This document shows, one piece after another, positions 4,470 through 23,452 of a stretch of DNA of 64,000 nt (the first letter of the stretch is position 1; every line of letters starts with the position of its first letter). This DNA comes from Nitrospirae bacterium JdFR-85 (GTDB lineage: Bacteria > Nitrospirota > Thermodesulfovibrionia > Thermodesulfovibrionales > JdFR-85), in the NCBI GenBank assembly GCA_002011745.1, contig MTOU01000027.1, positions 1 to 64,000 on the forward strand. The letters run 5' to 3'. A model generated the notes under the pieces. It had not been told where the DNA came from and did not search any database. It was given only the letters and a program-made list of their open reading frames with translations. Both the position numbers and the translations under genes were made by a program.

Positions 4470-5315
4470 ATGAAAAACAAGAGATTACCTGAGTGGATTA
4501 GGCAGTCCCATATAACAGGCAGACACAACACAAAAAGGATTCTGCGTAGTTACAGGCTCTCTACTGTCTGTGAAGAGGCAAGGTGTCCAAACAAGGGATA
4601 CTGCTTCTCAAAGCCTACTGCCACTTTTATGATACTCGGTGATATATGTACCAGAAACTGCCGTTTCTGTTCTGTGAGTTCTGGACAACCCTTGAGAGTT
4701 GACCCTGAGGAGCCTGAAAGGGTAGCACTTGCTGCAAAAAAGATGAAGCTCAGGTTTGTGGTAATAACCTCAGTAACAAGGGATGACCTTCCTGATGGTG
4801 GTGCAGAGCAGTTTGCCAGAACCATCAGAAAGGTGAGAGAATACCTGCCCAAGGCCAAGGTCGAGGTACTTACACCCGATTTTAAGGGCTCCTTTGATGC
4901 CCTGAAGAAAGTTCTTGATGCCGGCCCTGATGTATTTAACCATAACATAGAAACCATCCCAAGGCTTTACAAAAAAGTAAGACCCCAAGCAGACTACAGG
5001 AGGTCTCTACAGGTCTTAAGGATGGCCTCAGAGTACAATCCAATAATACCCACCAAATCAGGACTGATGGTAGGTCTCGGAGAGAGCTTTGATGAGGTCG
5101 TTTCTGTGATGGAAGACCTGAGAGAAGCAGGATGTACCATCCTCACCATTGGACAGTATCTACAGCCAGGGAGAGAGAATCTACCTGTTGTGGAATATGT
5201 AAGGCCTGAGGTCTTTGAGAGATACAGAGATATAGCATTTCAGCTCGGTTTCAGATATGTTGCCTCAGGTCCCCTTGTAAGAAGCTCAATGAATGCAGAA
5301 GAAATGTATGCCTAA
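4470..5315 (+). CDS. lipA: Lipoyl synthase LipA
   Basis: LipA is a radical SAM enzyme that inserts two sulfur atoms into protein-bound octanoyl groups to make lipoyl cofactors for GcvH and 2-oxoacid dehydrogenases. At 281 residues it has the standard length. The auxiliary cluster motif CEEARCPNKGYC (CX4CX5C) and the radical SAM motif CTRNCRFC (CX3CX2C) are both intact, as is the C-terminal RSSMNAEEMY with the conserved RSS. No Shine-Dalgarno is seen and the -10 box sits 10 bases upstream. LipB/LplA and the target proteins are not in the window. It converges with the neighbouring minus-strand cluster, overlapping its last gene by 4 bases. Confidence 0.97.
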   Translation: MKNKRLPEWIRQSHITGRHNTKRILRSYRLSTVCEEARCPNKGYCFSKPTATFMILGDICTRNCRFCSVSSGQPLRVDPEEPERVALAAKKMKLRFVVITSVTRDDLPDGGAEQFARTIRKVREYLPKAKVEVLTPDFKGSFDALKKVLDAGPDVFNHNIETIPRLYKKVRPQADYRRSLQVLRMASEYNPIIPTKSGLMVGLGESFDEVVSVMEDLREAGCTILTIGQYLQPGRENLPVVEYVRPEVFERYRDIAFQLGFRYVASGPLVRSSMNAEEMYA

Positions 5316-6439
5316 GAAGAGATGAATTTCTTTACCATCTCCTTTATCTCTCTCCCGCTCAGATCAACAGGTGGAAGAGGTTCATTACCTACCAAGGCAA
5401 TGATATGCACAAAGGCAGGACCCTTTCCGAGTCTCTTAAGAGTCTTTTTTAAATCTTCCTCAGTAGAGAGTGTCCTTACATTTTTAATACCAAATCCCTT
5501 TGCCACAACCGAGAGATTGCTCACTACAGAGGTATGTGTTGACTGACATCCTGTAGAACCATATACACCATTGTCAATTGCAAGAATTGTCAGATTCGGA
5601 GGTCTCATAAAGGCAACAGTGGCCAGTGTGCCAGGATTCATAAGTAAACTACCATCCCCATCAATCACTACCACCTCTTTATCAGAGCAGAGGGCTATTC
5701 CGAGTCCCAGAGGAGTAGCCATCCCCATGCTACCAAGCATGTAGAAGTTTGAGGGTTGATGAAATAGATGATAGAGCTCTTTTGAGGGAAACCCCAGATT
5801 ACATACCACCACCTTGTCCTTCAGATACCACCTGAGTGTCTTCAGTATCTCATACCGTCTCATACTCGGTCTCGGAAGCATCAGCATTCCTCTGTCAATA
5901 TCACCTGTTTTTGGTCTTTTGCTGACGGTGGATTCTGTGACCTCAAAAGAGTTCTTCCATATTGCAGGATTCAACAGGAAGAAATAGGGCCTCTCTTCTC
6001 TGTACACCATCTTGAGCTTCTCCGGAATCTTTATAAAGTCTCTTCTTGAGTTGACAATGGTGTACCCAAGTTGTGATGCCCTCAGTACAGAGGTGAGTTT
6101 CTTTCCCAAAGGTATCTGGGCCTTTATCTTTTCACCCCTCAGGCCCCTTCTGCTTACGAATACAGCCAGAGGCAGCCTGTAATACACAGTGAGTGAAAGT
6201 AGTGCATTCAGCATATTCCCCACACCTGAGCTCTGGATAAACATCGCAGGTCTTCTACCAGCAAGTGCAGCTCCAGCAGATATACCTACTCCTTCTTCTT
6301 CTCTCGTAACAGGTACATGGATATCAAACTCTCTCAGAAGACATATAAGTCCCTTAATCTTCTCACAGGGAAGAGAAGACACAAAATCCACACCTGCATC
6401 TTTAAGAATCTCTATGAGTTCTGTCTCTGGATACTGCAT
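5312..6439 (-). CDS. comDE: Sulfopyruvate decarboxylase, fused ComD-ComE (coenzyme M biosynthesis)
   Basis: A thiamine diphosphate enzyme of 375 residues with both halves on one chain. The N-terminal (ComD-like) half has TREEEGVGISAGAALAG with the cofactor-activating Glu at about 48, then SSGVGNMLNALLSL. The C-terminal (ComE-like) half has the ThDP/Mg motif VIDGDGSLLMNPG (residues 258-270), then DNGVYGSTGCQSTHT. The family reaction is sulfopyruvate to sulfoacetaldehyde plus CO2. In several archaea ComD and ComE are separate polypeptides. The gene overlaps the upstream cysteate synthase by 28 bases. Phosphonopyruvate decarboxylase is the nearest alternative; the neighbour argues for sulfopyruvate. 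Confidence 0.82.
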   Translation of the reverse strand: MQYPETELIEILKDAGVDFVSSLPCEKIKGLICLLREFDIHVPVTREEEGVGISAGAALAGRRPAMFIQSSGVGNMLNALLSLTVYYRLPLAVFVSRRGLRGEKIKAQIPLGKKLTSVLRASQLGYTIVNSRRDFIKIPEKLKMVYREERPYFFLLNPAIWKNSFEVTESTVSKRPKTGDIDRGMLMLPRPSMRRYEILKTLRWYLKDKVVVCNLGFPSKELYHLFHQPSNFYMLGSMGMATPLGLGIALCSDKEVVVIDGDGSLLMNPGTLATVAFMRPPNLTILAIDNGVYGSTGCQSTHTSVVSNLSVVAKGFGIKNVRTLSTEEDLKKTLKRLGKGPAFVHIIALVGNEPLPPVDLSGREIKEMVKKFISS

Positions 6440-7671
6440 AGCAGTTCTTCCACCTCCTCTGGTGATGCAGTTTTTGATACACAGATGGGAGTAACCTCGG
6501 ATACCTTGTGTTCTGAAGAGAGTCTCTTTTCTCCTCCGCCTGTTATATTCAGAAGCACAGTCTCTGTCTTTTTGATATGACCCTCCTTTGTAGCCTCCAT
6601 CAATGAGGCTACTGCCACTGCAGAGGCAGGTACAATATCCACCCCTTCTAAGGATTCAAAGAGCTCCATTGCCCTGTAGACTTGCTGATTTTCAATACCA
6701 TACATCCTCCCTCCAGTGGCTTTCAAGGCATCATATACTCCACCTATTACAGAGTAGGCAGGATAACGGTTAGAAAGCACTCTTGTGGTTATCCTCGGAA
6801 TGAGTGATGGGTCAAGGTCTTCCTTGGAGAGTTCTCTCTCTCTTCTCTGCCATGCCTTTGTCATTGGTGCAAAGGGTAGATTCTGGGAGAGGTGTAAGAC
6901 AGGAAGCTTTTTCCCGAAACGGCCATCTTTCAGAAGCCTTTCTGCCATCTCCCACACCCCTATTGCGCCTGTACCACTGCCCACGGCCTGAAAATAATGG
7001 TCAGGCATCCTGCCGATTCTCTCCACTGCCTCAAGCAGTACCACCCCAAGGCCATCCCTCTTTGCAATATTTTTTACTCCACCTTCAAAGGGATACCCAA
7101 GATGTACAGCTAGCTTTCTTGCAAACTCAATGCTGTCAGAATAATCGCCATCAGTAAGGGCAACTGTTGGTACTGCTGTAGAGGGTTCCAGATACCACAT
7201 ATCCATGAGACACATGGTAGGAACAACTATGATGACAGAAAAGGATGAAACCAGAGAGAGATGAGCCATCGCTCTTGCAGTGTTACCTGCAGAGGCAACT
7301 ACAAGACCCTCTACCCCATTCTCCCTCGCATTCTGTATTACTACTGCAGCCTCAAGCTCTTTGAAGGTGCAGGTCTTAAGAAGGGCTCCTCTGTCCTTCC
7401 AGTATCCGCTGAAGGCGATATAGAGCTCTTTCAGACCGAGGAAATCTGCCAGTATGCTGGACTTATAAACCACTGGTGAGGGTTGTGAAAAGGAGGCTTT
7501 GTGTACAGGAAGCCAATTAAACCTCCATATCTCTGTGCCACTGCCAGGAGAAAGTATTGGTTCTTCATACTCAGACACAAGAAGGGCTCCACTGCAGTGC
7601 TCACAGAAGGCACAGTATGTATTCTCAAGGACCTTGCCACATCTTCTGCATTTTATTCTAAAATGGCTCAT
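6412..7671 (-). CDS. Cysteate synthase (PLP enzyme, coenzyme M biosynthesis)
   Basis: Cysteate synthase makes L-cysteate from O-phosphoserine and sulfite, the entry to coenzyme M in Methanosarcina-type archaea, and derives from threonine synthase. The 419-residue protein has an N-terminal zinc-ribbon-like segment (Cys 8, 11, 20, 23, 26), the region SGYWKDRGALLKTCTFKELE with the candidate PLP lysine (Lys92, or Lys99), the phosphate loop ASAGNTARAMAH, and the block DHYFQAVGSGTGAIGVWE. From memory, this block, SQNLPFAPM and the YSVIGGVYDAL...LFESLEG region resemble archaeal cysteate synthases more than threonine synthase. It overlaps the hdrD-like gene by 14 bases and comDE by 28. The aspartate aminotransferase that would convert cysteate to sulfopyruvate is not in the window. 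Confidence 0.85.
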   Translation of the reverse strand: MSHFRIKCRRCGKVLENTYCAFCEHCSGALLVSEYEEPILSPGSGTEIWRFNWLPVHKASFSQPSPVVYKSSILADFLGLKELYIAFSGYWKDRGALLKTCTFKELEAAVVIQNARENGVEGLVVASAGNTARAMAHLSLVSSFSVIIVVPTMCLMDMWYLEPSTAVPTVALTDGDYSDSIEFARKLAVHLGYPFEGGVKNIAKRDGLGVVLLEAVERIGRMPDHYFQAVGSGTGAIGVWEMAERLLKDGRFGKKLPVLHLSQNLPFAPMTKAWQRRERELSKEDLDPSLIPRITTRVLSNRYPAYSVIGGVYDALKATGGRMYGIENQQVYRAMELFESLEGVDIVPASAVAVASLMEATKEGHIKKTETVLLNITGGGEKRLSSEHKVSEVTPICVSKTASPEEVEELLCSIQRQNS

Positions 7672-8956
7672 CTGCTCCTCCCCTGGAAGATGTTGTTACC
7701 ATCTCTGCAGCTGCTCCTGAGAGTGCTTCTGCCAGCAACTCCATTATGTCTACGATCTTTATCTTCCTCTCATATCCTTCCATCGCCTCATTCAACTTGG
7801 CATAACAGGCTGGACAGCTTAAAACAAGTCTGTCTGCCCCTTTTCTTACTGCCTCATCTATGGTGAGTCTCCCGATGGCTATTGCATTCTCGTGAAATAC
7901 TTTCCTTGCAGCCCCACCTGCTCCACAACATCGGGAGTTTTTTTCATGCCTGTCCAGTTCTATGAGTTCTACTCCCTCAATACTTCTGAGAACCTCTCTG
8001 GGAGCCCTTACAATCCCCATACCCCTGCTCAGATAACAGGGGTCATGGTATATAATCCTTCCAGAGAGTCTCCTTAGCCTTGTTCTGGCCTTTCTCAGTA
8101 TCGGAAGTATAAACTCTGTTATATGAAGTACTTTAAAAGGAAGCGGGCCTCCATAGAATACTGGCCAGTCTTTTGCCATCATATTAAGACAGCAGGGGCA
8201 GGAACAGACAAGGTACTGTACGCCTCTTCTCTGGTAGGAATCCACTAATCTCTTCACGATATCCTGGAGCATATCATGTTGCCCTGTAATAAAGAGGGGG
8301 AAACCACAACAGACCTCTTCCTCATTATTCAGCATCGTGAACTCCACCCCAAGAGATGCCAGTACCACCACATCTCCTCTTACCATCGGCTCTGCCTCAT
8401 AGGCACCTGTACAGCCAGCATAATAGGCAACAGGGGCGGTGTCCTTCAGGTTGACCCATTCTGGAAACCACCCCTTGAATCTCTCAGACATGGGTTTACC
8501 ATAGGGATTCCCTGTGTTCTCTATGTTATAAGGAATCTCCCTCTGAGAACCCAAGGGACCAAGCCCCCTCTTGACCATCTCTCTTCTTAGTGTAGGCCAT
8601 AGCCTCTGGGTATTGATACCTGAGGGGCAGAACTGTCCACATGCCCCACAGGTAGTACACTCATATATCGCCTTCGTGAATTCCTCAAGTAATCTCCTAT
8701 CTATCTCTTTTCTGCCAAAGAGTCTCGCCTTAAGACTGTCTGTAGCCTTTATAAATTCTCTGTACACCCTGAGCTTCTCTGGGGGCGAGATATCTGGATT
8801 CTTTGTCACCTCCTGGACAGGACAGTACCTCAAACACTCACCACACTGGGTGCATGCATCAATCTCTGCCACCTGCTCTGGAGAGAGTTCTTTTACAAAG
8901 GATTCTTTTGGCAATTCAATCTCCTTCTTCAGGGCCTCTATCCCTTGCCGAGGCAA
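7658..8956 (-). CDS. hdrD: Heterodisulfide reductase subunit D-like protein
   Basis: A 432-residue protein with the HdrD architecture: two ferredoxin-type [4Fe-4S] sites (Cys35/38/41/45 and Cys100/103/106/110) followed by two CCG domains (Cys182, 216/217, 251-256; then Cys307, 343/344, 381/384). In methanogens these CCG domains hold the noncubane cluster that reduces CoM-S-S-CoB. Relatives also serve glycolate, lactate and sulfur-compound oxidoreductases, so domain content alone does not fix the substrate. Its translation is coupled to an HdrE-like cytochrome b upstream and to cysteate synthase downstream, supporting a coenzyme M disulfide. No ATG is available near the N-terminus; the frame opens after a TAA and TTG at 8956 is the likely start. 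Confidence 0.8.
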   Translation of the reverse strand: MPRQGIEALKKEIELPKESFVKELSPEQVAEIDACTQCGECLRYCPVQEVTKNPDISPPEKLRVYREFIKATDSLKARLFGRKEIDRRLLEEFTKAIYECTTCGACGQFCPSGINTQRLWPTLRREMVKRGLGPLGSQREIPYNIENTGNPYGKPMSERFKGWFPEWVNLKDTAPVAYYAGCTGAYEAEPMVRGDVVVLASLGVEFTMLNNEEEVCCGFPLFITGQHDMLQDIVKRLVDSYQRRGVQYLVCSCPCCLNMMAKDWPVFYGGPLPFKVLHITEFILPILRKARTRLRRLSGRIIYHDPCYLSRGMGIVRAPREVLRSIEGVELIELDRHEKNSRCCGAGGAARKVFHENAIAIGRLTIDEAVRKGADRLVLSCPACYAKLNEAMEGYERKIKIVDIMELLAEALSGAAAEMVTTSSRGGADEPF

Positions 8957-9587
8957 AGGTTATCAGCACAGGTGCAGTAAACAGATGTGCGGGCAGAAGA
9001 AGCAGAAATAGGAGAAACCCACCATAATGGACCGAAAACAGTATATCAAGAGGAAACTCTTCTGGTCTGAAAGTCACAAGGCCCATGGTAAATACCTTCA
9101 CCTGAATGATATCGATCCTGTGAATATATCTCATTGCAAGACCACTTACTCCAAGAAGACCGATCAGACTGATGAGGAGAAGATTGTATCGGGACACATA
9201 CTCCACCTTTTTAAACAAGACCTTTATCACCATGATATAAACCAGTGAAGTAACCATCACAATACCTGTAAAGGAGCTGAAAGGGTAAAGACAGAACACT
9301 GCAGATGGAACAGGATAGGTAAAAAACCTGAGATGGATAAAGAGTACTATAAGCAGAGATACATGGAAGACCCACTCGCCAAACCATATTAAAGGGCTTG
9401 ACCTGAAGAGTCTGCCTAAGAAGACAACATCCAGCAACCCCTTGGGCAATGATATCAGAAGAGGCCGGTTCTTTTCATACAATGCCTTCCTTCCAGTGGC
9501 AGTCATAATAAGATAGGCCTTCCAGCATACCCTCGCAAGGGTTACTGTAAATACCAAGTATGAAACCAGATATATTAAAAGCTTCAT
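8916..9587 (-). CDS. hdrE: HdrE/NarI-like membrane cytochrome b subunit
   Basis: About 223 residues with five to six hydrophobic segments. Histidines suited to heme b ligation are seen at WVFHVSLLIVLFIHLRF (two His ten residues apart), MRYIHRID, SVHYGG and LLPAHLFT; the last two are 14 residues apart, like the paired ligands of NarI. I infer a membrane cytochrome b passing electrons between quinone and the HdrD-like partner, as HdrE does in Methanosarcina. ATG 9587 is chosen; an in-frame TTG at 9599 would overlap the preceding stop, and neither has a clear Shine-Dalgarno. The 3' end overlaps hdrD by 41 bases. Confidence 0.75.
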   Translation of the reverse strand: MKLLIYLVSYLVFTVTLARVCWKAYLIMTATGRKALYEKNRPLLISLPKGLLDVVFLGRLFRSSPLIWFGEWVFHVSLLIVLFIHLRFFTYPVPSAVFCLYPFSSFTGIVMVTSLVYIMVIKVLFKKVEYVSRYNLLLISLIGLLGVSGLAMRYIHRIDIIQVKVFTMGLVTFRPEEFPLDILFSVHYGGFLLFLLLLPAHLFTAPVLITFASARDRGPEEGD

Positions 9588-9588
9588 T

Positions 9589-9894
9589 TTATTTTTCAAA
9601 TTCGATCTTTACATCTCTTGGTACATTGAACCCTGCCTCAACCTCCAGTGCCTTAAGAATTGCTATGGGCAGTGGACAACTAATGTGCCTCAAACACTGA
9701 AATCCCTCTTTAAAGACCTGAGAGCGTTTGTTAGAGAGGTCCTCTGTACTGAGAACCCTCAGTCTTTCTGCAAGCCTCTGTACCATCTCACATTCAGACT
9801 CCAGCAGAAGCTCAAAAGAGCCATTGTTGCCTTTTCTTACCTCAACAGTACTCATAAAGCCACAGGCACCTGCATCCACTTTCAGCTTTGCCAT
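9589..9894 (-). CDS. Small Cys-containing conserved protein of the methyltransferase cluster
   Basis: A 101-residue soluble protein. Visible features are an N-terminal DAGACGFMSTVEV segment, an ESECEMVQRLAERL helix with one Cys, a CLRHISCPLPIAILKALE segment with two Cys, and a C-terminal FNVPRDVKIEFE. It starts 1 base after the RACE stop and its own stop overlaps the start region of the cytochrome b gene. I recall similar small proteins near corrinoid methyltransferase genes but cannot name a proven function. A cofactor-binding or Fe-S chaperone role is conceivable from the four cysteines; this is inference. Confidence 0.65.
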   Translation of the reverse strand: MAKLKVDAGACGFMSTVEVRKGNNGSFELLLESECEMVQRLAERLRVLSTEDLSNKRSQVFKEGFQCLRHISCPLPIAILKALEVEAGFNVPRDVKIEFEK

Positions 9895-9895
9895 A

Positions 9896-11869
9896 TTAAC
9901 CCCTGATACTTATATGAAGATTCTTTTTTTCAAAAAGCGATTTTAGATGGGGAAAGGAGTCCTTCATATGAGGTATATGCATTGCCTGCATAAATTCCCT
10001 TTCAAAGTCGGGCTCAACCGCAATCTCCATGAATTCCACCCATCTTGCCCTCTCAGATGCCTCTCTTCTTTTCTCCCTGTTCAGAAGGGCCATTCTCGCT
10101 CCATCACCTGCTGCATTGCCCACTGCATAGACCCTCTTAATATCACAATCAGGAAACATTCCCAATGTAAGTGCAGATTCTCTGTCAATATAACTGCCAA
10201 AGGCACCTGCAAGTATGACTCTATCCAACTTCTGTATCCCCATCTTCTTCATCATCAGTTTTGCACCTGCATAAAGAGCTGCTTTTGCCAACTGCAGCGC
10301 CCTCACATCTGCCTGTGTTATTGTAATATCAGTTCCGATTGATGTCTCCTCGGCCCAGGCCAGCACATACTCTGGTTTGCCATCAGAGTCGAGTCTGATC
10401 CTGGGGGTATCCAGTCCCTTAACAAACTTGCCTGTTTTATCAATTATTCCTGCCTTAAACATCTCTGCAACCGCATCAATGATGCCTGAACCACAGATAC
10501 CCTTTGCATTCACCTCCTGTAAATAAGTATGCCAGTCTGCCTTACCTATCACCTTGTAATAACATTCCTTAGTTTCAGGGTCAATCCTCACCTTCTCTAT
10601 GGCACCTGGTGCTGCCCGCATACCAAACTTAATCTGGGCTCCTTCAAAGGCCGGGCCTGTGGCACAGGAGGTGGAGCATATCCTCTGCCTGTTGCCAAGC
10701 AGGAGCTCCCCATTTGTCCCTATATCAATAATCAGTACGATTTCATCTTGATTATAAGGCTCCTCAGCTATAAGTACTCCCACATTGTCTGCACCAACAA
10801 ATCCTGCCTCAAGGGGAAGTACATGTAGATAAGCACCAGGGCTTATGTTTATCCCTATGTCCCTTGCCTTGAGATCAATACTGTGTTGAAGGGCAGGTAT
10901 AAATGGTGAACGTCCGATGTACTCAGGATTAAGCCCCAGAAATATGTGGTGCATTGCGGTGTTGAAAACCACTGTCATATCCACTATGGCAGTCCCTCCG
11001 TCTTTCCCATCAGTCCTCAGGTCTGCAGTCACATTCCTGATAATCTCATTCAGGCCTTCAATTATTGCAGACTGCATCTTCTGTAGCCCTTCAGGATTGG
11101 TCATTGCATAGGTTATGCGGGACATAACATCCTCTCCATAAGGTACCTGTGGATTCATCATTGATTCGGTATTAATAACCTTACCAGTGTTGAGGTCACA
11201 GAGATAACCTACCACTGTGGTGGTTCCTATATCCACGGCAATTCCATAGGAGTTTTCAACAAAACCAGGTTCTACCTTTATCACCTCTCTGTCCATCCAG
11301 ACTGATACAGTTGCCCTCCACTGTCCTTTCCTCAGGACATCTTGGAGTTCCTTCAGTGCATAATAGTCAAAGGAGAGCCCTTTAAGACCGTATTTTTCCT
11401 CAAGGAAATCCAGTACCCTCTCCATGTCACCAGTAGTCATCTCCTCTAAGGAGGGAGGTTTCAGTTCAATGTTGTATTTTTTTACTGCAGGGTCAAGGGT
11501 TATGGAGAGTTCCTTTGCCGCCTTTCTGACCACCTGTTTGCCTGCCCTTGATCTTTCAGGAACGAATATCTTTAAGTCTCCATGTATCTCTGCTGCACAG
11601 GCAAGCCTTATATTAGGTCCATCCTCTGGTTTGATATGTTTGAGTTCCTCCCCTGTAATGGGTGACAGGTGATGCATACCAGATTCAATATTATCCTTCT
11701 CAAAGAACCCTACCTCTACTCTCACCTTACACTTTCCACATACCTTCTTGCCTCCACAGAGCCCTTCAATATCCACACCGAGTACCTGGGCAGCCTCAAG
11801 AAGGGTCTTCCCTTCCTGTATCTCGCCTCTTCTTCCAGCAGGCTGGAAAATCACCCTGTGTCTCTTCAT
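9896..11869 (-). CDS. Reductive activator of corrinoid proteins (RACE; 2Fe-2S plus ASKHA domain)
   Basis: A 657-residue two-part protein. The N-terminal ferredoxin has a 2Fe-2S ligand set CGGKKVCGKC plus a later Cys (Cys38, 44, 47, 91). The rest is a DUF4445-type ASKHA ATPase: YGIAVDIGTTTVVGYL near residue 210, a second phosphate site LIIDIGTNGELLLG, and ILAGAFGSYIDRESALTLG near the C-terminus. RACE proteins use ATP to reduce inactive cob(II)alamin on corrinoid proteins to cob(I)alamin. The gene carries its own GGGAGGT site. It follows a strong hairpin that separates it from the methyltransferase genes upstream, so its expression may be partly uncoupled from theirs. Confidence 0.93.
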   Translation of the reverse strand: MKRHRVIFQPAGRRGEIQEGKTLLEAAQVLGVDIEGLCGGKKVCGKCKVRVEVGFFEKDNIESGMHHLSPITGEELKHIKPEDGPNIRLACAAEIHGDLKIFVPERSRAGKQVVRKAAKELSITLDPAVKKYNIELKPPSLEEMTTGDMERVLDFLEEKYGLKGLSFDYYALKELQDVLRKGQWRATVSVWMDREVIKVEPGFVENSYGIAVDIGTTTVVGYLCDLNTGKVINTESMMNPQVPYGEDVMSRITYAMTNPEGLQKMQSAIIEGLNEIIRNVTADLRTDGKDGGTAIVDMTVVFNTAMHHIFLGLNPEYIGRSPFIPALQHSIDLKARDIGINISPGAYLHVLPLEAGFVGADNVGVLIAEEPYNQDEIVLIIDIGTNGELLLGNRQRICSTSCATGPAFEGAQIKFGMRAAPGAIEKVRIDPETKECYYKVIGKADWHTYLQEVNAKGICGSGIIDAVAEMFKAGIIDKTGKFVKGLDTPRIRLDSDGKPEYVLAWAEETSIGTDITITQADVRALQLAKAALYAGAKLMMKKMGIQKLDRVILAGAFGSYIDRESALTLGMFPDCDIKRVYAVGNAAGDGARMALLNREKRREASERARWVEFMEIAVEPDFEREFMQAMHIPHMKDSFPHLKSLFEKKNLHISIRG

Positions 11870-11945: not shown

Positions 11946-11966
11946 GTCCGTGGTAAGACCACGGAC
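11946..11966 (-). other. Perfect 9-bp hairpin with a 3-base loop, overlapping a stop codon
   Basis: GTCCGTGGT (11946-11954), a 3-base loop, ACCACGGAC (11958-11966). It overlaps the TAG of the QueG-like gene and is directly followed on the minus strand by the terminator-like hairpin. Tandem hairpins of this kind can protect the 3' end of the upstream message or modulate read-through. Confidence 0.65.
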
Positions 11967-12598
11967 TAAAGCTTCTGTCTTCCATAAGGACAGATATTGA
12001 TACAGACCCCACAGTTAGGCTTCTTCTCAAACCTCCTCCTAGTCTTCTTAAATTCATCACACTTTTTGTAGTCCACAAGCAGAGGAAAGGGTTCACTCCG
12101 TGACCATTCCACCCCACTTATTGCTCCGGAAGGACAGTACTTCACACAGAGATCACAGTCCTTACAGCCCGATACAACCACTGGTTCATCTGGTTCAAAG
12201 GGTGCATCTGTGAGCACTGTTGCCCAGGATAGTCTCGGGCCATACTCCCTGTTGATTAAGAGCCCGTTCTTACCTATCCATCCAAGTCCTGCACAGGTGG
12301 CAGCGGTTTTATGACAGAAGAGTCCATACAGTCTGCTTATAAACTTTCCATTCCTCCTGTCTGAATCAGGAGGGATGGAAAGAAACCTGTATCCCTTCTG
12401 TCTCAGATAACTCTCTGCCTTCTTCTGTAGCATGATCAACTGCTTCACTGTAACTGCATTCAGATTTCTCTTCACCCCGATTGATACAGCCCTCTTAAGA
12501 TGCATAATATCCCCTTTCAGCGCAGGTGATATATCCCCTACACCCACCACTGTAGCACCAGACTCAATCAGGATGCTTTTCAGTTCATCTGCCTTCAA
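11966..12598 (-). CDS. QueG-like double 4Fe-4S cluster protein (corrinoid-associated)
   Basis: A 210-residue protein of the epoxyqueuosine reductase-like group. Seen: CAGLGWIGKNGLLINREYGPRLSW (the B12/active-site region of QueG relatives, key GWIGKNGLL), then CKDCDLCVKYCP and a second set KKC...NCGVCINICPYG, enough ligands for two [4Fe-4S] clusters. QueG itself uses cobalamin in tRNA queuosine synthesis, but the C-terminal HEAT repeats are absent and the gene sits in a corrinoid methyltransferase operon. I infer a role in corrinoid reduction or activation. The start appears to be TTG at 12598, overlapping the corrinoid protein gene by 14 bases; the N-terminal LKADELKSILIESGA fits the family. 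Confidence 0.75.
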   Translation of the reverse strand: MKADELKSILIESGATVVGVGDISPALKGDIMHLKRAVSIGVKRNLNAVTVKQLIMLQKKAESYLRQKGYRFLSIPPDSDRRNGKFISRLYGLFCHKTAATCAGLGWIGKNGLLINREYGPRLSWATVLTDAPFEPDEPVVVSGCKDCDLCVKYCPSGAISGVEWSRSEPFPLLVDYKKCDEFKKTRRRFEKKPNCGVCINICPYGRQKL

Positions 12599-13283
12599 TC
12601 CTGTTTGCCTCTGCCTCCTGTCTCATCTTTCTGAGAGAGCTGATCATATTTATCGCCTCTTTAAGGGCATTATTTGCGTCAGGAGCATAACCATCAGCAC
12701 CCCATTTGTCTGCCAGTTCTTTTGAAACAGGTGCCCCACCAATCATGATCTTCACATCCGGATTCTTTTGTTTCAGTTTCTCTATCACCTTTTGCATTCC
12801 CACCATTGTGGTAGTCATCATTGCAGACAGACACACAAGATCAGAGTCTGTCCTAAGCTGCTCCTCTACAAATTTATCAAGGGGCACGTCTCTTCCCAGG
12901 TCATAGACAGTAAAGCCTGCAACATCAAACATCATCTTCACTATATTTTTGCCGATATCATGAACATCCCCCTCAACCGTTCCAATAACCACAGAACCCT
13001 TCACCCCAAGGTCCATCTTCTTCACATGGGGCTTCAGGATATCCAGACCTGCATAAAGTGCGTCTGCACACATCAGAAGCTCAGGAACAAAGTATTCCTG
13101 TTCTTCAAAAAGCCTACCCACCTCTTCCATTCCTGAGACAAGGCCCTCAAATATTGCTTCATTCGCATCCATTCCAAACTCAACCGCCTCCTGTGCAGCC
13201 TCCCTCACAGCATCCTCGTCATACTGAATAACCCCGTTCTTCAGTCTGTCAAGGATCTCCCTCTTCTTTTCTTCTGTCAACAT
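12585..13283 (-). CDS. Methyl-carrying corrinoid protein (MtaC/MtbC/MttC-like)
   Basis: A 232-residue B12 shuttle protein. The N-terminal helical cap (residues 1-90) reads EAVEFGMDANEAIFEGLVSGMEEVGRLFE and EYFVPELLMCADAL. The Rossmann B12 domain holds the base-off cobalamin signature GTVEGDVHDIGKNIV with the cobalt-ligating His108, then SAMMTTTM and IGGAPVS. Such proteins carry a methyl group on cobalt between a methyl donor methyltransferase and an acceptor methyltransferase. The neighbours on each side, an MtaA-like and an MtrH-like protein, are the likely partners. GGAGGT precedes the ATG. Confidence 0.93.
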   Translation of the reverse strand: MLTEEKKREILDRLKNGVIQYDEDAVREAAQEAVEFGMDANEAIFEGLVSGMEEVGRLFEEQEYFVPELLMCADALYAGLDILKPHVKKMDLGVKGSVVIGTVEGDVHDIGKNIVKMMFDVAGFTVYDLGRDVPLDKFVEEQLRTDSDLVCLSAMMTTTMVGMQKVIEKLKQKNPDVKIMIGGAPVSKELADKWGADGYAPDANNALKEAINMISSLRKMRQEAEANRIEGR

Positions 13284-13286
13284 AAT

Positions 13287-14321
13287 CTAACCTCCATAGT
13301 TTGTTATTTCATCCATCATCGCCTTCATGTTTTCGGGTGGTACAGTGGGCCAGATATCACAGCCCGGCCATACCGCAGAAACCCCTTCTTCAATACACCT
13401 TCCTATGGTGCTTCTGACCAGTTCAGTGTCTCCTCTGACCAGCACATTGTAGGGGTCATAGTTGCCGAATATAAGGGCATCCCTGCCAAGTTTCTTCCTT
13501 GTTTCTGAGATATCATTCTTCTGGTCAACACTTATCGCCTTTGTACCAGACTCCATCATAAAGCCCACTATATCATTGGTCTTACCACAGATATGGAGCA
13601 CAGTGTTCCCCTTCAGTTCTCTAAAGACCTTCTGTAAATAGGGCAATATAAGGGACTTAAACACTCTGGGGCTGAGGACATCTGAGGTCGCCCCCATCTC
13701 CCTGACAGTGATATAATCAACACCAGCACTCTCATACTCCTTCGCAACCATGACTATCACATCCGCAAGCAGGTCAAGGAGCCTCCCCACCTTGTCAGGT
13801 TTTTTGAATGAGAGTTTCAGAAGTTCATTCAGTTCCATGATCTGTCCTGCCAGGGTAAAAGGCCCCAGGACATAGGTACCCACTGCGTATTCTCCTCCTA
13901 TCTCCTCCTGTAGGAGTTTGATTGCCTCCTTCACAAGCTGAATCCTTCCCTTCTGCAAAAGGTCCTTGGAGATCTCTATCTCCATCTCCTCTTCATTATG
14001 GATTATCTTCTCCTTTATAGTAGGGTAGAGGATATCCTCTGAGTGTGCATAGACATTTATCTCACACCCCAGTGCCTCTGCTTCCACTGTGAGGTCAAAG
14101 GGTACAACAGCAGATTCAAAACCGAAGAATTTGGGAGTAGTGGCGGCGGATTCTGCCATCTTTTTTGCATCCAGATGCACAGTTGCAAATCTGTAACCGA
14201 GCTGGTTCAGACCCTCTGTGGTAATATTCCCCATCCCACTGAAACAGGGTACCCTGTCTATCTCTTCCCCTCTGAATAGTCGTAGAATCCGTTCCTTTGA
14301 ACTAATTGTTGAGACTGCCAT
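13287..14321 (-). CDS. MtaA/MtbA-like methylcobamide:coenzyme M methyltransferase, copy 2
   Basis: A 344-residue protein of the uroporphyrinogen decarboxylase-fold methyltransferase group (MtaA, MtbA, CmuA). It retains the zinc ligands expected of thiol-activating members: His243-x-Cys245 (LHICGKTND) and Cys321 (WPGCDIWP). In MtaA/MtbA this zinc binds coenzyme M thiolate, which accepts the methyl group from methyl-cobamide. True uroporphyrinogen decarboxylases lack this triad. ATG 14321 (MAVSTISSKERIL) is chosen because GGAGAGG lies just upstream; a longer start has no such site. Only 3 bases separate it from the corrinoid protein gene. Ether-type or other thiol acceptors remain possible. Confidence 0.85.
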   Translation of the reverse strand: MAVSTISSKERILRLFRGEEIDRVPCFSGMGNITTEGLNQLGYRFATVHLDAKKMAESAATTPKFFGFESAVVPFDLTVEAEALGCEINVYAHSEDILYPTIKEKIIHNEEEMEIEISKDLLQKGRIQLVKEAIKLLQEEIGGEYAVGTYVLGPFTLAGQIMELNELLKLSFKKPDKVGRLLDLLADVIVMVAKEYESAGVDYITVREMGATSDVLSPRVFKSLILPYLQKVFRELKGNTVLHICGKTNDIVGFMMESGTKAISVDQKNDISETRKKLGRDALIFGNYDPYNVLVRGDTELVRSTIGRCIEEGVSAVWPGCDIWPTVPPENMKAMMDEITNYGG

Positions 14322-14337
14322 ATCACCTCTCCTTTCC

Positions 14338-15303
14338 TTATTGTTTTTTGGCCTTCTTTCTGATTCCACCCTCTATAAGTTTTTCTATAAAATCTGAGAA
14401 GTATTTTCTGATTGGAAGTGAATTGTTCTCTGGTATCTCCTTTGTCTCCTCATATACCAGGGTTGAAAGGAGTATATGTGCTGTTGCCACTGCTGGGAAG
14501 ATCCTTGAGGCTGTTACAATGGGACCATAAAAGTTAAAGTCACTCCATAGGGCTGTGGACATAGCCTGTGCCACTGCATCCATTGCCCTGAATCCCTCAA
14601 GACCCCAGACCTCCTTAGCCTCCTTCCACATATGGGTTCCATTGGAGTATGCACCACCACAGGGAAGTCCCAGCTTCTCTTTTATCATCCTGTTTGCTAT
14701 CAATGAAAAAGAGGTTGCAGGCAGGTTCATTACAGAGGTATCCACTATTATGGTCTCAAAACCGTCAGCACCCTGTTCAAGCAGCCTCTCAAGGGACTTA
14801 ACCCTTCCGAAAGGAGTCTGATCCTGGTCATCAAAGACCTGTACAACCACATGTTTTATACCAAGGTCTTTCAGCCTCTGTACCTGTCCCTTTATGTCCT
14901 TGTCCCAGGGGGTTATACTGTTGTAGAGGAATCTCTCCTGCAAGCCCAGCTTTGCCACATACTCTGCAACCTTTGTCCTTTTGTCTGCCACCCACATATC
15001 AATCCCGAAAGGCATATCAGTTGTTTCAAGATAAAAATCTATATATACCTGAGCCTCCTCAGGCGTATTTGCCACCATTGCTACCATGGCAGGAATGCCT
15101 GTAGATTTACTCAGCTCTTCCTGCCGTTTGATCAATTCAGATGCCCTTTTACGATCAAATTCTGCCTTTTTTCTGTCAAAAAGAATCCTGTCCTTGTTAT
15201 GAAACATTGAGGCGATCAGCAGTGGAGGATTCTCTCCAGGCTGTCCACCCACTTTCAGGTCACCTATTCTGAAGACCTTTTGCTCTGTCTGAAATCTGAA
15301 CAT
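14338..15303 (-). CDS. MtrH-family methyl-tetrahydropterin:corrinoid methyltransferase
   Basis: A 321-residue protein that resembles MtrH, the subunit of the archaeal Na+-translocating Mtr complex that takes the methyl group from methyl-tetrahydromethanopterin. Recognisable MtrH blocks: MFRFQTEQKVFRIGDLKVGGQPGENP, ELIKRQEELSKSTGIP, VYIDFYLETTDMPFGIDMW and FLYNSITPW. The membrane subunits (MtrA-G) are absent. Bacterial MtrH-like enzymes such as MtgA use tetrahydrofolate, which is the likely pterin here. ATG 15303 with AGGGGA upstream is preferred over TTG 15309. With the adjacent corrinoid protein it would exchange methyl groups with methyl-tetrahydrofolate. Confidence 0.88.
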   Translation of the reverse strand: MFRFQTEQKVFRIGDLKVGGQPGENPPLLIASMFHNKDRILFDRKKAEFDRKRASELIKRQEELSKSTGIPAMVAMVANTPEEAQVYIDFYLETTDMPFGIDMWVADKRTKVAEYVAKLGLQERFLYNSITPWDKDIKGQVQRLKDLGIKHVVVQVFDDQDQTPFGRVKSLERLLEQGADGFETIIVDTSVMNLPATSFSLIANRMIKEKLGLPCGGAYSNGTHMWKEAKEVWGLEGFRAMDAVAQAMSTALWSDFNFYGPIVTASRIFPAVATAHILLSTLVYEETKEIPENNSLPIRKYFSDFIEKLIEGGIRKKAKKQ

Positions 15304-15405
15304 ATCCAATCCCCTTTTAATTAGTATTAGTTACTCTCAGATATTTTCTGCATAGCAGGGGTATGAAAAGCTTAAACCCCTGCTATGCTTCTGAGAGCTT
15401 TCTAT

Positions 15406-15921
15406 CTAATAGATTCCACGGTCAAACTTCGGTGGTGGCAGATACTCCCACTCCTCACCTTTCATTATCTTCTGGGCCAGTTCAACACACTTCACAGCAT
15501 ACTCAAAGGCATAGGGAATTCCAGGACCATTGGGAACAAAGCCAGCAAGAATACAACCGACTGCTGCTGCCTCAAATACCTCCTCCACAGTTGCCCCTGC
15601 CTTTACAGCAGGAAGGACATGGATTATACATCTGGGTGACATATAGGCGACTCCACCTGCCATAAATATAAGTTCCTTTACCTTCCTTGAAAGCGCCCCG
15701 TCCTTCCACAGGGAATTATAAAAGTCTGCAAAGGTCTTTCCTGCCTCAGGATTCAACTGGTTGATCACCTTGAACATCCTTGGTGTAAACAACATCTTCT
15801 CTTCCATGTACTTATTTGCTTCTTCAGGTGTTAATTTCTGCTCTTCTGACATGGTTTCCTCCCTTTCTGTGCTCTCCGGCCTCATGGCCAGAAATTTTTT
15901 GAAACTCTCCAATATCCCCAT
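15406..15921 (-). CDS. Carboxymuconolactone decarboxylase/AhpD-like protein
   Basis: A 171-residue helical protein of the CMD/AhpD fold. The core reads KTFADFYNSLWKDGALSRKVKELIFMAGGVAYMSPRCIIHVLPAVKAGATVEEVFEAAAVG (key elements: LSRKVKELI, CIIH, AGAT..E). AhpD-type members carry a redox CxxC before the His; here only the second Cys of the pair is kept (SPRCIIH), so a disulfide reductase role is unlikely. A Shine-Dalgarno GGGGAGG precedes ATG 15921; an inner ATG at about 15853 is possible. It lies between two methyltransferase genes and is presumably part of the same methyl-transfer pathway, role unknown. Confidence 0.78.
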   Translation of the reverse strand: MGILESFKKFLAMRPESTEREETMSEEQKLTPEEANKYMEEKMLFTPRMFKVINQLNPEAGKTFADFYNSLWKDGALSRKVKELIFMAGGVAYMSPRCIIHVLPAVKAGATVEEVFEAAAVGCILAGFVPNGPGIPYAFEYAVKCVELAQKIMKGEEWEYLPPPKFDRGIY

Positions 15922-15992
15922 AATTTACCTCCCCTTTAAAGTCCTCCAAAACCTTCTCTATCACCTCCCTGTCTTTGATAGAGACTCTCTGC

Positions 15993-17021
15993 TTAAAGCC
16001 TCCATTGCCGCGCCACCTGAATGAACATCTGGATATTCTCATAGGGAACATTCGGGGGTATGTCACATCCTGGCATCAGGACAAATGCTCCATTAGTACC
16101 TGCCTTCTCTATAATCCCCTTACAGGTCTCTTCCACTTTTGTGGTATCACCCTGGAGCATAACTGCTACAGGGTCAACATTACCTCCAAAACAGATCTTC
16201 CCATAGAGTACTTCCTTTGCCTTTGCTATGTCTGTCTTATGGTCAAGGCTTATGCAGCTTGCTCCTGTGTCAGGAAACATCTCAAGCCTATCAGTGGTAT
16301 TACCACATATATGAAGCAGTACATGGACATCCTTTGATCTTGCCCAGTCTGTGAATCTTCTGAGAGCAGGCAGAGCAAACTTCTGAAACTGCTTTTTTGA
16401 GATGAGGTCTCCTGATGCTGTGGGGTCTGCGAGACTTATCACCTCTAAGGTTCCGTCATCCACAAGGGGCTTATATAAATGGATCAGTAGTTCTGTGGCA
16501 AAATCAATCGCCTTTTCCACAAAATCGGGTTTTTTAAAAGTGGCCTTCATCATCTGCTCCTCACCCACTATTCGTGCAGCAAGAGTGAAAGGACCCCAGG
16601 CTGTCATGGTCACCACATAGGTGTTCCCAATTTTTTCTTTCGTTTTTCTCAATGCCTCTTTTATGGTGTTTATTGTCTCATCCTTATCAATATCCTCAAT
16701 CTTGAGCTTTGCAAGATCCTCTTCTGAGTCTACAAGGGGAGCCTCAAGATCTGGAGCACCCACTTCCCTGAATTTTATCTTGCCTCCAAGGGCAGCAGCA
16801 TGAAAGTTGTTGTACCCAGAGCCTGCATAGACAATATCACACTGCAGTTTATCACTCATCTCTATAAGCATCTGGGTCATCTTGTCAGGGTTTCTGGATA
16901 GCTCTTCAAAGGTGCTACCCCAGTTTGATATGCTCCACATTCCACCACCAAAAAGGGTGACAGGTACCCTTTCAGGCTTGCCCCCTTCAAAGGCTTTCAG
17001 AATAGTCTCTCTTGGTGTCAT
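15993..17021 (-). CDS. MtaA/MtbA-like methylcobamide:coenzyme M methyltransferase, copy 1
   Basis: A 342-residue uroporphyrinogen decarboxylase-fold methyltransferase, first gene of the cluster. The zinc triad is His237-x-Cys239 (LLHICGNTTD) and Cys319 (LMPGCDIPPN), spacing as in MtaA/MtbA. It is a diverged paralogue of the gene at 13287-14321 with the same layout (AWGPFTLAAR versus VLGPFTLAGQ). ATG 17021 follows AAAGGAGG; a longer upstream frame lacks a ribosome site and would extend into the leader. Two paralogues suggest either two corrinoid partners or a heteromer. The sigma-54 promoter lies about 165 bases upstream. Confidence 0.85.
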   Translation of the reverse strand: MTPRETILKAFEGGKPERVPVTLFGGGMWSISNWGSTFEELSRNPDKMTQMLIEMSDKLQCDIVYAGSGYNNFHAAALGGKIKFREVGAPDLEAPLVDSEEDLAKLKIEDIDKDETINTIKEALRKTKEKIGNTYVVTMTAWGPFTLAARIVGEEQMMKATFKKPDFVEKAIDFATELLIHLYKPLVDDGTLEVISLADPTASGDLISKKQFQKFALPALRRFTDWARSKDVHVLLHICGNTTDRLEMFPDTGASCISLDHKTDIAKAKEVLYGKICFGGNVDPVAVMLQGDTTKVEETCKGIIEKAGTNGAFVLMPGCDIPPNVPYENIQMFIQVARQWRL

Positions 17022-17475
17022 AAAGACCTCCTTTAATAATTGAAATAAGACATTTACACAAATAACCTCAGATTGTCGTTTGAGTTGGACACAAAAAACA
17101 TTGGAAGGCAGACCATCCTGCCTATAAACCACAATTTGGGGAAACAAGACATTTCTTGATATCTGTTCATTTTCTTAACGAAAAGCAACTTTGGTGCCAG
17201 AGGGCAAAGGAGAAACTGATCGCCCTGTAACCCCTTATAAACTAAGAGAATTGAGAGATTTAAAATAGTCCTGATAGTTGTTCTTCAGGATAACAAGAGG
17301 AAAATCTCCACACCTTTTTGGGGAATTTTTCCTCAAGTTTAAAAATAGAGAAAGTTAGTCTCCTCTCTTAATAAGGGAGGTATTATGATTATACTATAGG
17401 CTCAACAGGCTCTCTTATATTTTTGGTGAAGATGTGATGTCTTTAATTTTAGCTCTAAAATGCTATAATTATGTT
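17022..17475. other. Intergenic region holding the methyl/coenzyme M cluster promoter
   Basis: About 450 bases with no credible gene. It holds the minus-strand sigma-54 promoter (17184-17199), a leader of about 150 bases with a small GGCAG...CTGCC inverted repeat near 17117-17132, a minus-strand TATAAT at 17388-17393 without a good -35, and a plus-strand TATAAT at 17464-17469 for the nucleotidyltransferase. I looked for a cobalamin riboswitch B12 box and core and saw none. Confidence 0.6.
17184..17199 (-). promoter_or_regulatory. Sigma-54 (-24/-12) promoter of the methyltransferase cluster
   Basis: On the minus strand the sequence reads TGGCACCAAAGTTGCT, matching the sigma-54 consensus TGGCAC-N5-TTGCW, with the invariant GG and GC exactly 10 bases apart. 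It sits in the gene-free region about 165 bases upstream of the first methyltransferase start. Sigma-54 promoters require an enhancer-binding AAA+ activator; which one acts here is unknown. Confidence 0.8.
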
Positions 17476-19784: not shown

Positions 19785-19823
19785 TTAGCCAAAAATTTTA
19801 AATTATATGTGAGGAGGTGTTTC

Positions 19824-21227
19824 ATGAAAAAGGTATATCTTTTAAGTGTATTTCTCTGGGTGGGAGGATTTTTATTTCCATCCACTCTGATTGCGAAAAG
19901 TGTTGAAATTGACCCATGCATTAAGTGTCATGACACTGTGACACCTGGTATTGTGAAGCAATGGCATGATAGCAAACATAGTAGTGCTGGAGTTGGGTGT
20001 TATGAATGTCATAAAGCAAAAGAGGGTGATCCTTCAGGATATGAACACAATGGTTTCAAGATTACAGTTATCCCCTCTCCAAAATATTGTGGAGGCTGTC
20101 ATCCCAAGGAAGTAGAAGAGAATATTAGGAGCAAACATGCATGGACTGCCTTTTTTGGACCACTAAAACCCTACTATAAGAAGGCAAAAGAGTTAGGTCT
20201 TGACCCTTTGAGTCAAGAGACAGCAAAAAAACTGAATCCCGAAGAGATTGCAAAACGGGCTTTGACACCACTTTATCCTGACAGTGGAGTACTGAAAAGA
20301 ATAGGGCTTCTTGACGACAAAAGTTATTCACATAATAATATTGTTCTTGGCTGTATTCAATGCCACGGCAGTTTTATTATCGCTGAACCAGGGGGCAGAT
20401 TGAAAGGATGGCCTAATGTTGGGATTGGAAGAGTCAATCCTGATGGCAGTCTCGGCTCATGTACATCCTGTCATACAAGACATAGATTCAGTATAGCAGA
20501 GGCAAGAAAACCAGAAACCTGTGGTCAGTGTCATCTCGGTCCTGATCATCCACAGATTGAGATATACGAAGAGTCAAAACATGGCAATATCTATGCTTCC
20601 TCTGGTGAAGAATGGAATTGGGATGTCCCAGCAGGCAAATGGGGACCAAAAGATATTGTAGCACCAACATGTGCTACATGTCACATGAGTGGTTTTGGTG
20701 GTGTGGTGGAGACTACACATAACGTTGGTTCAAGACTTTACTGGGAGCTCCAACCTAAAAAGTCTGTCCCTCAATGGAAAGGCCCAGATGAGGTTGATTT
20801 TGTTATAAAGAGGATACCAGACAAAAAGAAGGCAGAAGCTGGTAGAGCCAGAATGAAGAAGGTCTGTAATCAATGTCATTCCAGAAACTGGACAGATAAC
20901 TACTTTATTGAGTTTGACAAGGTTGTTGAAGATTACAATCGGATATGGGAATATACAGACAACCTACTGAAAAAAGCCTATAAGGAAGGGCTTATCAATA
21001 AGGATAATCCTCTTGATGAGACACCTGAGATAATGCACTATCTGATATGGCATCATGATGGAAGAAGATGGAGAATGGGAGCAAGCATGATGGGACCTGA
21101 CTGGACACATTGGAATGGGGCAGTTGATACTATCATGAATAAGCTCGGTACTATGCTCAATGATCTCGAGATGAGAAAGAAACTCAAGGCGATAGGGGTT
21201 GACTGGAAGGAAATAGAGGTTAAATAA
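19824..21227 (+). CDS. Octaheme c-type cytochrome, hydroxylamine oxidoreductase (HAO) family
   Basis: A 467-residue exported protein: signal peptide in the first 25 residues, then eight CxxCH heme sites (His at 36, 63, 93, 181, 217, 237, 287, 352). Spacing and the tail CNQCHSRNWTD..., TPEIMHYLIWHHDGRRWRMGASMMGPDWTHWNG match the HAO family. HAO proper has a Tyr that crosslinks to the active-site P460 heme; by eye the corresponding C-terminal position is Trp427 (GPDWTHW). That fits the reductive or non-crosslinked branch, proposed to reduce nitrite or hydroxylamine. ATG 19824 follows GAGGAGGTG; no cytochrome maturation or NapC-type partner gene is adjacent. Confidence 0.85.
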   Translation: MKKVYLLSVFLWVGGFLFPSTLIAKSVEIDPCIKCHDTVTPGIVKQWHDSKHSSAGVGCYECHKAKEGDPSGYEHNGFKITVIPSPKYCGGCHPKEVEENIRSKHAWTAFFGPLKPYYKKAKELGLDPLSQETAKKLNPEEIAKRALTPLYPDSGVLKRIGLLDDKSYSHNNIVLGCIQCHGSFIIAEPGGRLKGWPNVGIGRVNPDGSLGSCTSCHTRHRFSIAEARKPETCGQCHLGPDHPQIEIYEESKHGNIYASSGEEWNWDVPAGKWGPKDIVAPTCATCHMSGFGGVVETTHNVGSRLYWELQPKKSVPQWKGPDEVDFVIKRIPDKKKAEAGRARMKKVCNQCHSRNWTDNYFIEFDKVVEDYNRIWEYTDNLLKKAYKEGLINKDNPLDETPEIMHYLIWHHDGRRWRMGASMMGPDWTHWNGAVDTIMNKLGTMLNDLEMRKKLKAIGVDWKEIEVK

Positions 21228-22558: not shown

Positions 22559-23452
22559 CTATCTTCTCTGTTCTGTCTTTACTACAAGCCAATAAACTAT
22601 TCCAAGCACAAAAATTGCAGCAACCAGGTAATAAGATACCATTATCTTCTCATGTTTGAGAGTCATGATCATAAGGTCTCTTATAAAGGCCACAAGGGCA
22701 ACACCTATAAATACACTAATATTAAACCTGCCTCCTTTTAGATGCTCTATCTCTGTATTCATAAGCTCTATCAGTATCCAGAGAATAAGTAATGAACCCA
22801 AGGCAGAGATAATTCCATAACTGATATTGTTCTTGGCAAATATATTAATAACATCATAGAAGAACAGACCAGCCACTCCAAGGGTAATAAGGATAAGTGC
22901 TAATACAAGTACAAGGTTCATTGTACTTGAAAAGCTTTCAGCGAATCTAATAAGAAAGCTCTTTATTCTTAATGCAGTGGAGTACTGGATAAGTTCTTCT
23001 TCTATGTATGAACTTGTAATTATATCAAGATTAATATCCAGCATTTTATTCAGTGATTCCTTGAGCTGGGTTCTCTGGATCTTATCTTCGATCTCTTCTG
23101 AAAGAATATCCATCAAGATACTCCTTATAGTATTCATGGAGACACTTACAAAATGGGGTTCTATCTTTAAAGAAGCGTGTTTTTTACCTACTTTTATAAG
23201 ATACCAATAAAAGTCTTTATTGTAAGGTCCTGTGAAAAGCTTAATTAGCCATTCCTTATGGTGTTCTGAAAGGTCTGGATAGGCATCCAACTTCTCGATA
23301 ATATGCTGTTCTCGTGTATTTCTTATTCTTTCTTCAAGTGTCTGTACAATCCTGTTTAAACTGTCTTTAACTATAGGGTAGAGGCTTCTTACTTTTTCTT
23401 CATCCTGTGTGGTGAGATTATAATTCTTTTTAATTTTTCTGAAAGAAACCAT
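22559..23452 (-). CDS. Globin-coupled membrane protein: protoglobin-like sensor fused to PsiE-like membrane domain
   Basis: Residues 1 to about 165 are helical and resemble protoglobin/globin-coupled sensor domains: LYPIVKDSLNRIVQTLEERI, HHKEWLIKLFTGPYNKDFYWYLIKVGKKHASLKIEPHFVSVSMN. The His in VGKKHASLKI is placed like the proximal heme ligand, and KEWLIKLFTGPYNKDFY is the family's F-helix lead-in. Residues about 175-290 hold four hydrophobic segments resembling PsiE (phosphate-starvation-inducible membrane protein). Such a globin-to-PsiE pairing suggests oxygen, NO or CO sensing coupled to a membrane output. It lies between purH-N and purD, an unexpected place. Heme binding is inferred. Confidence 0.65.
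   Translation of the reverse strand: MVSFRKIKKNYNLTTQDEEKVRSLYPIVKDSLNRIVQTLEERIRNTREQHIIEKLDAYPDLSEHHKEWLIKLFTGPYNKDFYWYLIKVGKKHASLKIEPHFVSVSMNTIRSILMDILSEEIEDKIQRTQLKESLNKMLDINLDIITSSYIEEELIQYSTALRIKSFLIRFAESFSSTMNLVLVLALILITLGVAGLFFYDVINIFAKNNISYGIISALGSLLILWILIELMNTEIEHLKGGRFNISVFIGVALVAFIRDLMIMTLKHEKIMVSYYLVAAIFVLGIVYWLVVKTEQRR

Follow-up and report, generated by a model that had tools for sequence, protein, structure and literature searches.

A Thermodesulfovibrionales operon combines genes for a putative soluble methyl-tetrahydrofolate/coenzyme M methyl exchange with archaeal-type coenzyme M biosynthesis genes and an HdrDE-like pair

We analyzed a stretch of 64,000 nucleotides (hereafter the window) from Nitrospirae bacterium JdFR-85 (assembly GCA_002011745.1, contig MTOU01000027.1, positions 1 to 64,000), located where contig 4 begins in a 100% complete genome of 2.33 Mb. 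The window carries an operon of 12 genes, in which corrinoid-dependent methyltransferase genes stand together with genes of archaeal-type coenzyme M (CoM) biosynthesis and an HdrDE-like pair. We consider it probable that this cluster encodes an inducible, soluble, corrinoid-dependent exchange of methyl groups between tetrahydrofolate (THF) and self-made CoM, with the redox state of CoM tied to quinones. The nearest named relatives of the window are metagenome-assembled genomes (MAGs) of Thermodesulfovibrionales and Nitrospirota, and the host lineage Thermodesulfovibrionales is uncultured and largely subsurface.

Based on open reading frames and profile searches of the window, the operon occupies positions 17021 to 5312 of the minus strand, and adjacent genes overlap or lie at most 100 bp apart (Table 1, in gene order). 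The initial annotation had described a module at 12585–17021 with an MtrH-like protein, a corrinoid protein and two MtaA homologues. All four were confirmed on the minus strand by Pfam and NCBIfam matches; this block is real but comprises the first five of the 12 genes, and the CoM biosynthesis genes and the HdrDE-like pair further along had been overlooked. Past ComDE, no conserved genes were evident in the stretches inspected.

Table 1. Operon genes and promoter site in the window
Feature	Position	Strand	Evidence
Perfect sigma-54 -24/-12 site, TGGCACCAAAGTTGCT	17184..17199	-	exact motif match; ~165 bp upstream of MtaAa
MtaAa, UroD-family corrinoid methyltransferase, own lineage	15993..17021	-	PF01208 E 5e-67
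AhpD/CMD-family protein	15406..15921	-	PF02627
MtrH-family methyl-pterin:corrinoid protein methyltransferase	14338..15309	-	PF02007 E 1e-54; NF002142 356 bits (cut-off 287)
MtaAb, MtaA-like CoM methyltransferase candidate	13287..14321	-	PF01208 E 1e-72
Corrinoid (methyl-carrier) protein	12585..13283	-	PF02607 + PF02310
Two-[4Fe-4S] protein, QueG/RDH-like C-terminus	11966..12598	-	PF13484; NCBIfam partial matches; invariant Cys
RACo/AcsV-type corrinoid reductive activase	9896..11869	-	PF14574, PF17651, PF17650, Fer2
DUF6951, small Cys3-His protein	9589..9894	-	PF22263
HdrE/DsrM-like membrane cytochrome b	8916..9599	-	DsrM partial match E 2e-17
HdrD-like protein, two 4Fe-4S motifs + two complete CCG sites	7658..8956	-	PF02754, Fer4
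Cysteate synthase (CysS), archaeal type-2 CoM pathway	6412..7671	-	TIGR03844 464 bits (cut-off 325)
Fused sulfopyruvate decarboxylase ComDE	5312..6439	-	TIGR03845, TIGR03846

The two MtaA homologues, which had both been assigned to CoM, differ in how well this assignment holds. MtaAb scored above both curated cut-offs (PRK06252, 280 bits versus 244; TIGR01463, 254 versus 235), is 30% identical to Methanosarcina mazei MtaA and forms a common clade with it (support 96/96) in a small tree with few references and without named Mlp, MtsA, MtvB or MtoB proteins. It thus belongs with the CoM methyltransferases of methanogens. MtaAa remained below both cut-offs (TIGR01463, 193 versus 235; PRK06252, 178 versus 244), formed a clade of its own in the same tree (100/100), and its best outside matches are Acetoanaerobium Mlp-like proteins at 29%. 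The predicted zinc ligands of both proteins are invariant (H237/C239/C319 in MtaAa, H243/C245/C321 in MtaAb). Such a His-Cys-Cys site marks the S/Se-methyltransferases of this superfamily, while the cysteine is replaced in O-demethylases (PMC10418091). Because of this site, a methyl-thiol or a methyl-selenol is a more likely substrate of MtaAa than a methoxy compound, and MtaAa could itself be the substrate-specific methyltransferase that the initial annotation had reported as missing. The PDB relatives of the MtrH-family protein are MtrH subunits and one methylcorrinoid:THF methyltransferase, and the corrinoid protein has a GDxHDxG motif with an invariant His108. Besides MtaAa and MtaAb, the genome encodes one further UroD protein, HemE on contig C1. 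A second, different four-gene cluster of corrinoid protein, UroD protein, MtrH and activase was seen in a related genome (G008, L032:1337-6515); its UroD protein groups with CmuA (93/90), and the cluster is a candidate halomethane or other methyl system.

The last two genes of the operon point to CoM biosynthesis. Cysteate synthase scored well above its cut-off, whereas the other TIGR03844 matches in the genome are PALP-family genes with at most 65 bits, probably threonine synthases. For the fused ComDE, the ComD part reached 174 with TIGR03845 (cut-off 148) and the ComE part 210 with TIGR03846, slightly below the cut-off of 221.5; the phosphonopyruvate decarboxylase model gave 203, far under its cut-off of 312. 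Besides methanogens and their relatives, CoM is known from bacterial alkene metabolism, where it is made by a different route; the type-2 route represented here is known from methanogens (PMC12068725). The genes resemble the type 2 pathway of Methanosarcina in having cysteate synthase and a fused ComDE, but they are bacterial, they share one operon with methyltransferases, and ComF/MMP16 is absent.

Between these genes and the methyltransferases lies the HdrDE-like pair. Both CCG sites of the HdrD-like protein (CX33CCX35CX2C and CX35CCX36CX2C) have all cysteines invariant, its PDB relatives include HdrB, and the four histidines of the HdrE-like cytochrome b are invariant as well. The pair therefore combines an HdrD protein carrying two complete CCG sites with a cytochrome b, as defines the HdrDE type, and most likely ties the CoM thiol/disulfide couple to the quinone pool. 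Some modules (L104:18325-19752, L105, L113 and L119) encode a further Fe-S protein of HdrD/TfrB-like type between DUF6951 and HdrE.

The arrangement of the genes recurs in dozens of Thermodesulfovibrionales MAGs, which is far from chance, and it is retained in relatives that belong to eight or more families of this order. Most of the enzymes are 57–97% identical among these relatives, while DUF6951, HdrE and ComDE are more divergent (about 30–65%). When about 85,000 species genomes were scanned for MtaAa, 80 loci were obtained, nearly all in Nitrospirota MAGs; MtrH was found in 67 of them, MtaAb in 62 and the corrinoid protein in 60, counts that are limited by contig ends. Among 61 genomes, cysteate synthase was present in all 24 with MtrH (in a broken frame in G004) and in 1/37 without it, a 75%-complete MAG (G013), giving a Fisher p of 4e-16, uncorrected for shared ancestry. 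A more distant version, with MtaAa and MtaAb at about 50%, occurs in a Nitrospinota genome (G071; L128 and L166), where CysS (broken frame), ComDE and an SsuA-like gene are located elsewhere. Two MAGs named Desulfobacteraceae UBA2156 and Nitrospina (L095, L096) share matching stretches with MtaAa at 61% and the rest of the module absent; the binning or naming of one of them is doubtful.

The context of the operon points to an inducible, THF-linked one-carbon (C1) module. The window holds two exact sigma-54 motif matches, including the one listed in Table 1, and an exact TGGCAYN5TTGC within 600 bp upstream of MtaAa was found in 47 of 63 loci compared to 1 of 1710 control stretches. Upstream of the module, 35 loci encode NtrC-type regulators, often with a GAF/PAS kinase, forming a sigma-54 two-component system. 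Relatives encode a small protein with a receiver domain (about 121 aa) between the sigma-54 site and MtaAa (L041:12051-12416; L055, upstream of 3402), which is missing in the window. Several relatives have FolD between DUF6951 and HdrE, and 11 loci encode, upstream and in the same orientation, a MetF that belongs to a distinct second type. Due to this FolD/MetF context, THF is the likely pterin, and not tetrahydromethanopterin, which had been left as an option. These genes, the presence of cysteate synthase and ComDE in the same cluster and the near-perfect co-occurrence of MtrH with cysteate synthase strengthen the soluble methyl transfer proposed initially. The chloromethane (cmu) pathway on pCMU01 offers a precedent, with folD and purU adjoining cmuA and a UroD-type methyltransferase serving THF-linked methyl oxidation; CmuA, however, is a fused protein of another branch, and cmu lacks CoM genes.

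Four loci (L091, L093, L109 and L110) carry an SsuA-type sulfonate transporter gene inside the module, and SsuA passed TIGR01728 in the three loci scored. In G061, whose module holds a sulfonate ABC transporter, all that a large internal deletion, without Ns, has left of cysteate synthase is a stub of its N-terminus and a C-terminal remnant (L164:8835-9082) between intact HdrD and intact ComDE. Neither CysS nor ComDE was found in G062, and importer and CysS are both present in G063. In this small number of MAGs, sulfonate import may replace sulfonate synthesis.

Whole-genome profile searches detected neither MttB (PF06253) nor MtaB (PF12176), with MtmB and MtbB outside the search, and methyl-CoM reductase (MCR) alpha (PF02249) was absent while the positive controls matched. 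The absence of mcr, mtaB and mttB suspected in the initial annotation was thus borne out genome-wide. Methane formation or use via MCR, as in methylotrophic methanogenesis, was rejected on the missing MCR alpha, and entry of methanol or methylamines via MtaB or MttB on the absence of both. A nitrogenase-like partner (methylthio-alkane reductase, F430-type) was also rejected: the PF00148 matches, typically four in one cluster per genome and judged by position only, resemble ordinary Nif sets, and several module-bearing genomes have none. Likewise, a link to the Wood-Ljungdahl pathway does not account for the module, since 57 of the 61 genomes have acetyl-CoA synthase (ACS) beta irrespective of the module, which makes this gene uninformative.

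Taken together, MtrH would handle methyl-THF, the corrinoid protein would carry the methyl group, and MtaAb would handle CoM at its His-Cys-Cys zinc site, while oxidised cobalt would be repaired by the RACo-type activase, with the Fe-S protein as its probable helper. A second methyl-thiol (or methyl-selenol) is the most likely substrate of MtaAa. The sulfoacetaldehyde needed for CoM would come from cysteate synthase and ComDE, and the HdrDE-like pair would most likely link the thiol/disulfide couple of CoM to quinones. The economical reading is that the whole chain from methyl-THF over the corrinoid protein to CoM would be a soluble stand-in for the methanogen Mtr complex (MtrA-H). Both share the methyl-pterin to corrinoid to CoM chain and an MtrH-family subunit, whereas here a soluble MtaC-type corrinoid protein takes the place of MtrA and an MtaA-type protein that of MtrE, in a THF context. 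The cluster lacks the Mtr membrane subunits and the MtrA corrinoid subunit (genome-wide, only MtrH was searched), and because no membrane MtrCDE is encoded in it, no Na+ pump is visible. Compared to Methanosarcina MtaA/MtbA, with which the fold family, the zinc site and, for MtaAb, the clade are shared, the system is bacterial, has MtrH as partner instead of MtaB/MttB and stands in a genome without MCR.

We favor this exchange between THF and CoM because CysS and ComD exceed their cut-offs within a strand-consistent series of overlapping genes, the gene order is kept, MtrH and CysS co-occur, and MtaAb clusters with M. mazei MtaA. It is further supported by the invariant His-Cys-Cys sites, the complete CCG sites, the FolD/MetF linkage, the sulfonate importer in four loci along with the loss of CysS in some, and the sigma-54 sites, NtrC-type regulators and pCMU01 folD precedent. 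The soluble methyl-THF/CoM transfer proposed initially is thus strengthened, while the assignment of MtaAa, the pterin and the neglect of HdrDE needed correction.

Several points weigh against this reading. ComF/MMP16 (HcyBio, PF01837), the last CoM step, is absent from the genome although the controls matched, and the product might therefore not be CoM, unless this step is done by other means, as may be the case. Neither an external methyl substrate nor a methyl-CoM-consuming enzyme was identified, and FolD and the second-type MetF are not linked to the cluster in the window genome itself. At least one genome (G067, a MAG) has the methyltransferase genes with no CoM genes found, and HdrDE is missing in a few loci (L078 and L120, again MAGs). 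Moreover, the reactions, the redox role and the direction are all deduced from gene content, motifs, conservation and co-occurrence. As to direction, methyl transfer from methyl-THF to a thiol is favorable by about 30 kJ/mol, and moving the methyl group back from a thioether to THF costs roughly 30 kJ/mol, which would make the direction towards CoM thermodynamically easier. Nevertheless, we lean very slightly towards entry of methyl groups as methyl-thiols or methyl-CoM and their oxidation via THF in a cmu-like manner, because the FolD/MetF linkage, the inducible control and the cmu precedent fit oxidation. It appears doubtful, though conceivable, that these bacteria have a respiratory C1 pathway in which methyl-CoM is a genuine intermediate and which comprises FolD, MetF, MtrH/corrinoid protein/MtaA, HdrDE and self-made CoM. 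Such a pathway would follow the methanogen scheme in folate currency, with a non-MCR enzyme making or consuming methyl-CoM.

Among the alternatives, we regard it as unlikely that the operon is a cluster of the type 1 mlp kind. Those clusters (Kountz & Balskus, PMC10418091) share with it two MtaA-like, Mlp-type proteins, a corrinoid protein, an activase and the His-Cys-Cys sites, and the closest outside matches of MtaAa are Mlp-like; yet they are defined by having no THF methylase within 20 kb, whereas the pterin methyltransferase MtrH is a core gene here, and CoM biosynthesis and HdrDE are added. Nitrospirota are unmentioned in that paper. The layout of methyltransferase MT1, corrinoid protein, MtrH-like MT2 and activase is also that of the MtoABCD/MtvABC O-demethylases (PMC8630106), so that the MtaA-like proteins might demethylate aryl methyl ethers, as MtvB/MtoB do, with MtrH passing the methyl group to THF. 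This we consider highly improbable and reject on zinc site and clade: both proteins have His-Cys-Cys where O-demethylases replace the cysteine (PMC10418091), MtaAb lies in the MtaA clade, and CoM genes would be needless for such a system.

Two further explanations concern the role of CoM itself. CysS and ComDE could make sulfoacetaldehyde for a sulfonate other than CoM, the methyltransferases using another thiol; the missing ComF/MMP16 would fit, as would the fact that DUF6951 as a sulfur donor is a weak fold lead only. The tight linkage with a protein of the MtaA clade, whose characterised relatives use CoM, and the presence of a sulfonate importer where CysS was lost make this very unlikely. 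Equally slim are the chances that CoM is chiefly a thiol for redox buffering, acting together with HdrDE and the CMD protein, while the methyltransferases salvage methylated CoM. Both the HdrDE-like pair and the AhpD-like protein are in the cluster, and overexpressed CoM genes are reported to protect methanogens against oxidative stress (PMC12713407), but some modules without HdrDE keep the methyltransferases, and the linked MetF/FolD indicate C1 flux.

The AhpD/CMD protein, encoded between MtaAa and MtrH and adjoining MtaAa in 72/80 loci, is strongly conserved and has the Glu-Cys-His set, with the first cysteine of the AhpD CxxC absent. The activase reached 484 bits with the AcsV model, below the cut-off of that model, and the two-[4Fe-4S] protein is a possible electron donor to it. 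In DUF6951, residues C10, C34, H69 and C72 are invariant with a spacing much like the IscU active site. Its AlphaFold2 model (pLDDT 89) gave IscU/SufE fold matches that are coherent but weak (Foldseek E 0.14 or worse; VIA Z 5.9) and equalled by those to unrelated entries, making it a candidate sulfur donor or carrier as a lead only. Elsewhere in the window, a multihaem cytochrome c of the PF13447 family (19809-21227) lies just upstream of the operon on the opposite strand, and two fusion proteins join a protoglobin domain to a PsiE membrane domain (22559-23452) and SfsA to DUF123 (398-1513).

A literature search retrieved related work but no description of this operon; it did not extend to most preprints and subscription papers, and an earlier description is possible. 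Overall, the operon suggests that these bacteria run part of a methanogen-like pathway. If this is true, an operon in which archaeal type-2 CoM genes accompany an HdrDE-like pair and a corrinoid methyltransferase linked to THF would represent a new bacterial role of CoM in a widespread order. The interpretation of CoM-pathway genes in metagenomes could be affected, and the operon provides a soluble methyl-THF/CoM chain amenable to reconstitution.

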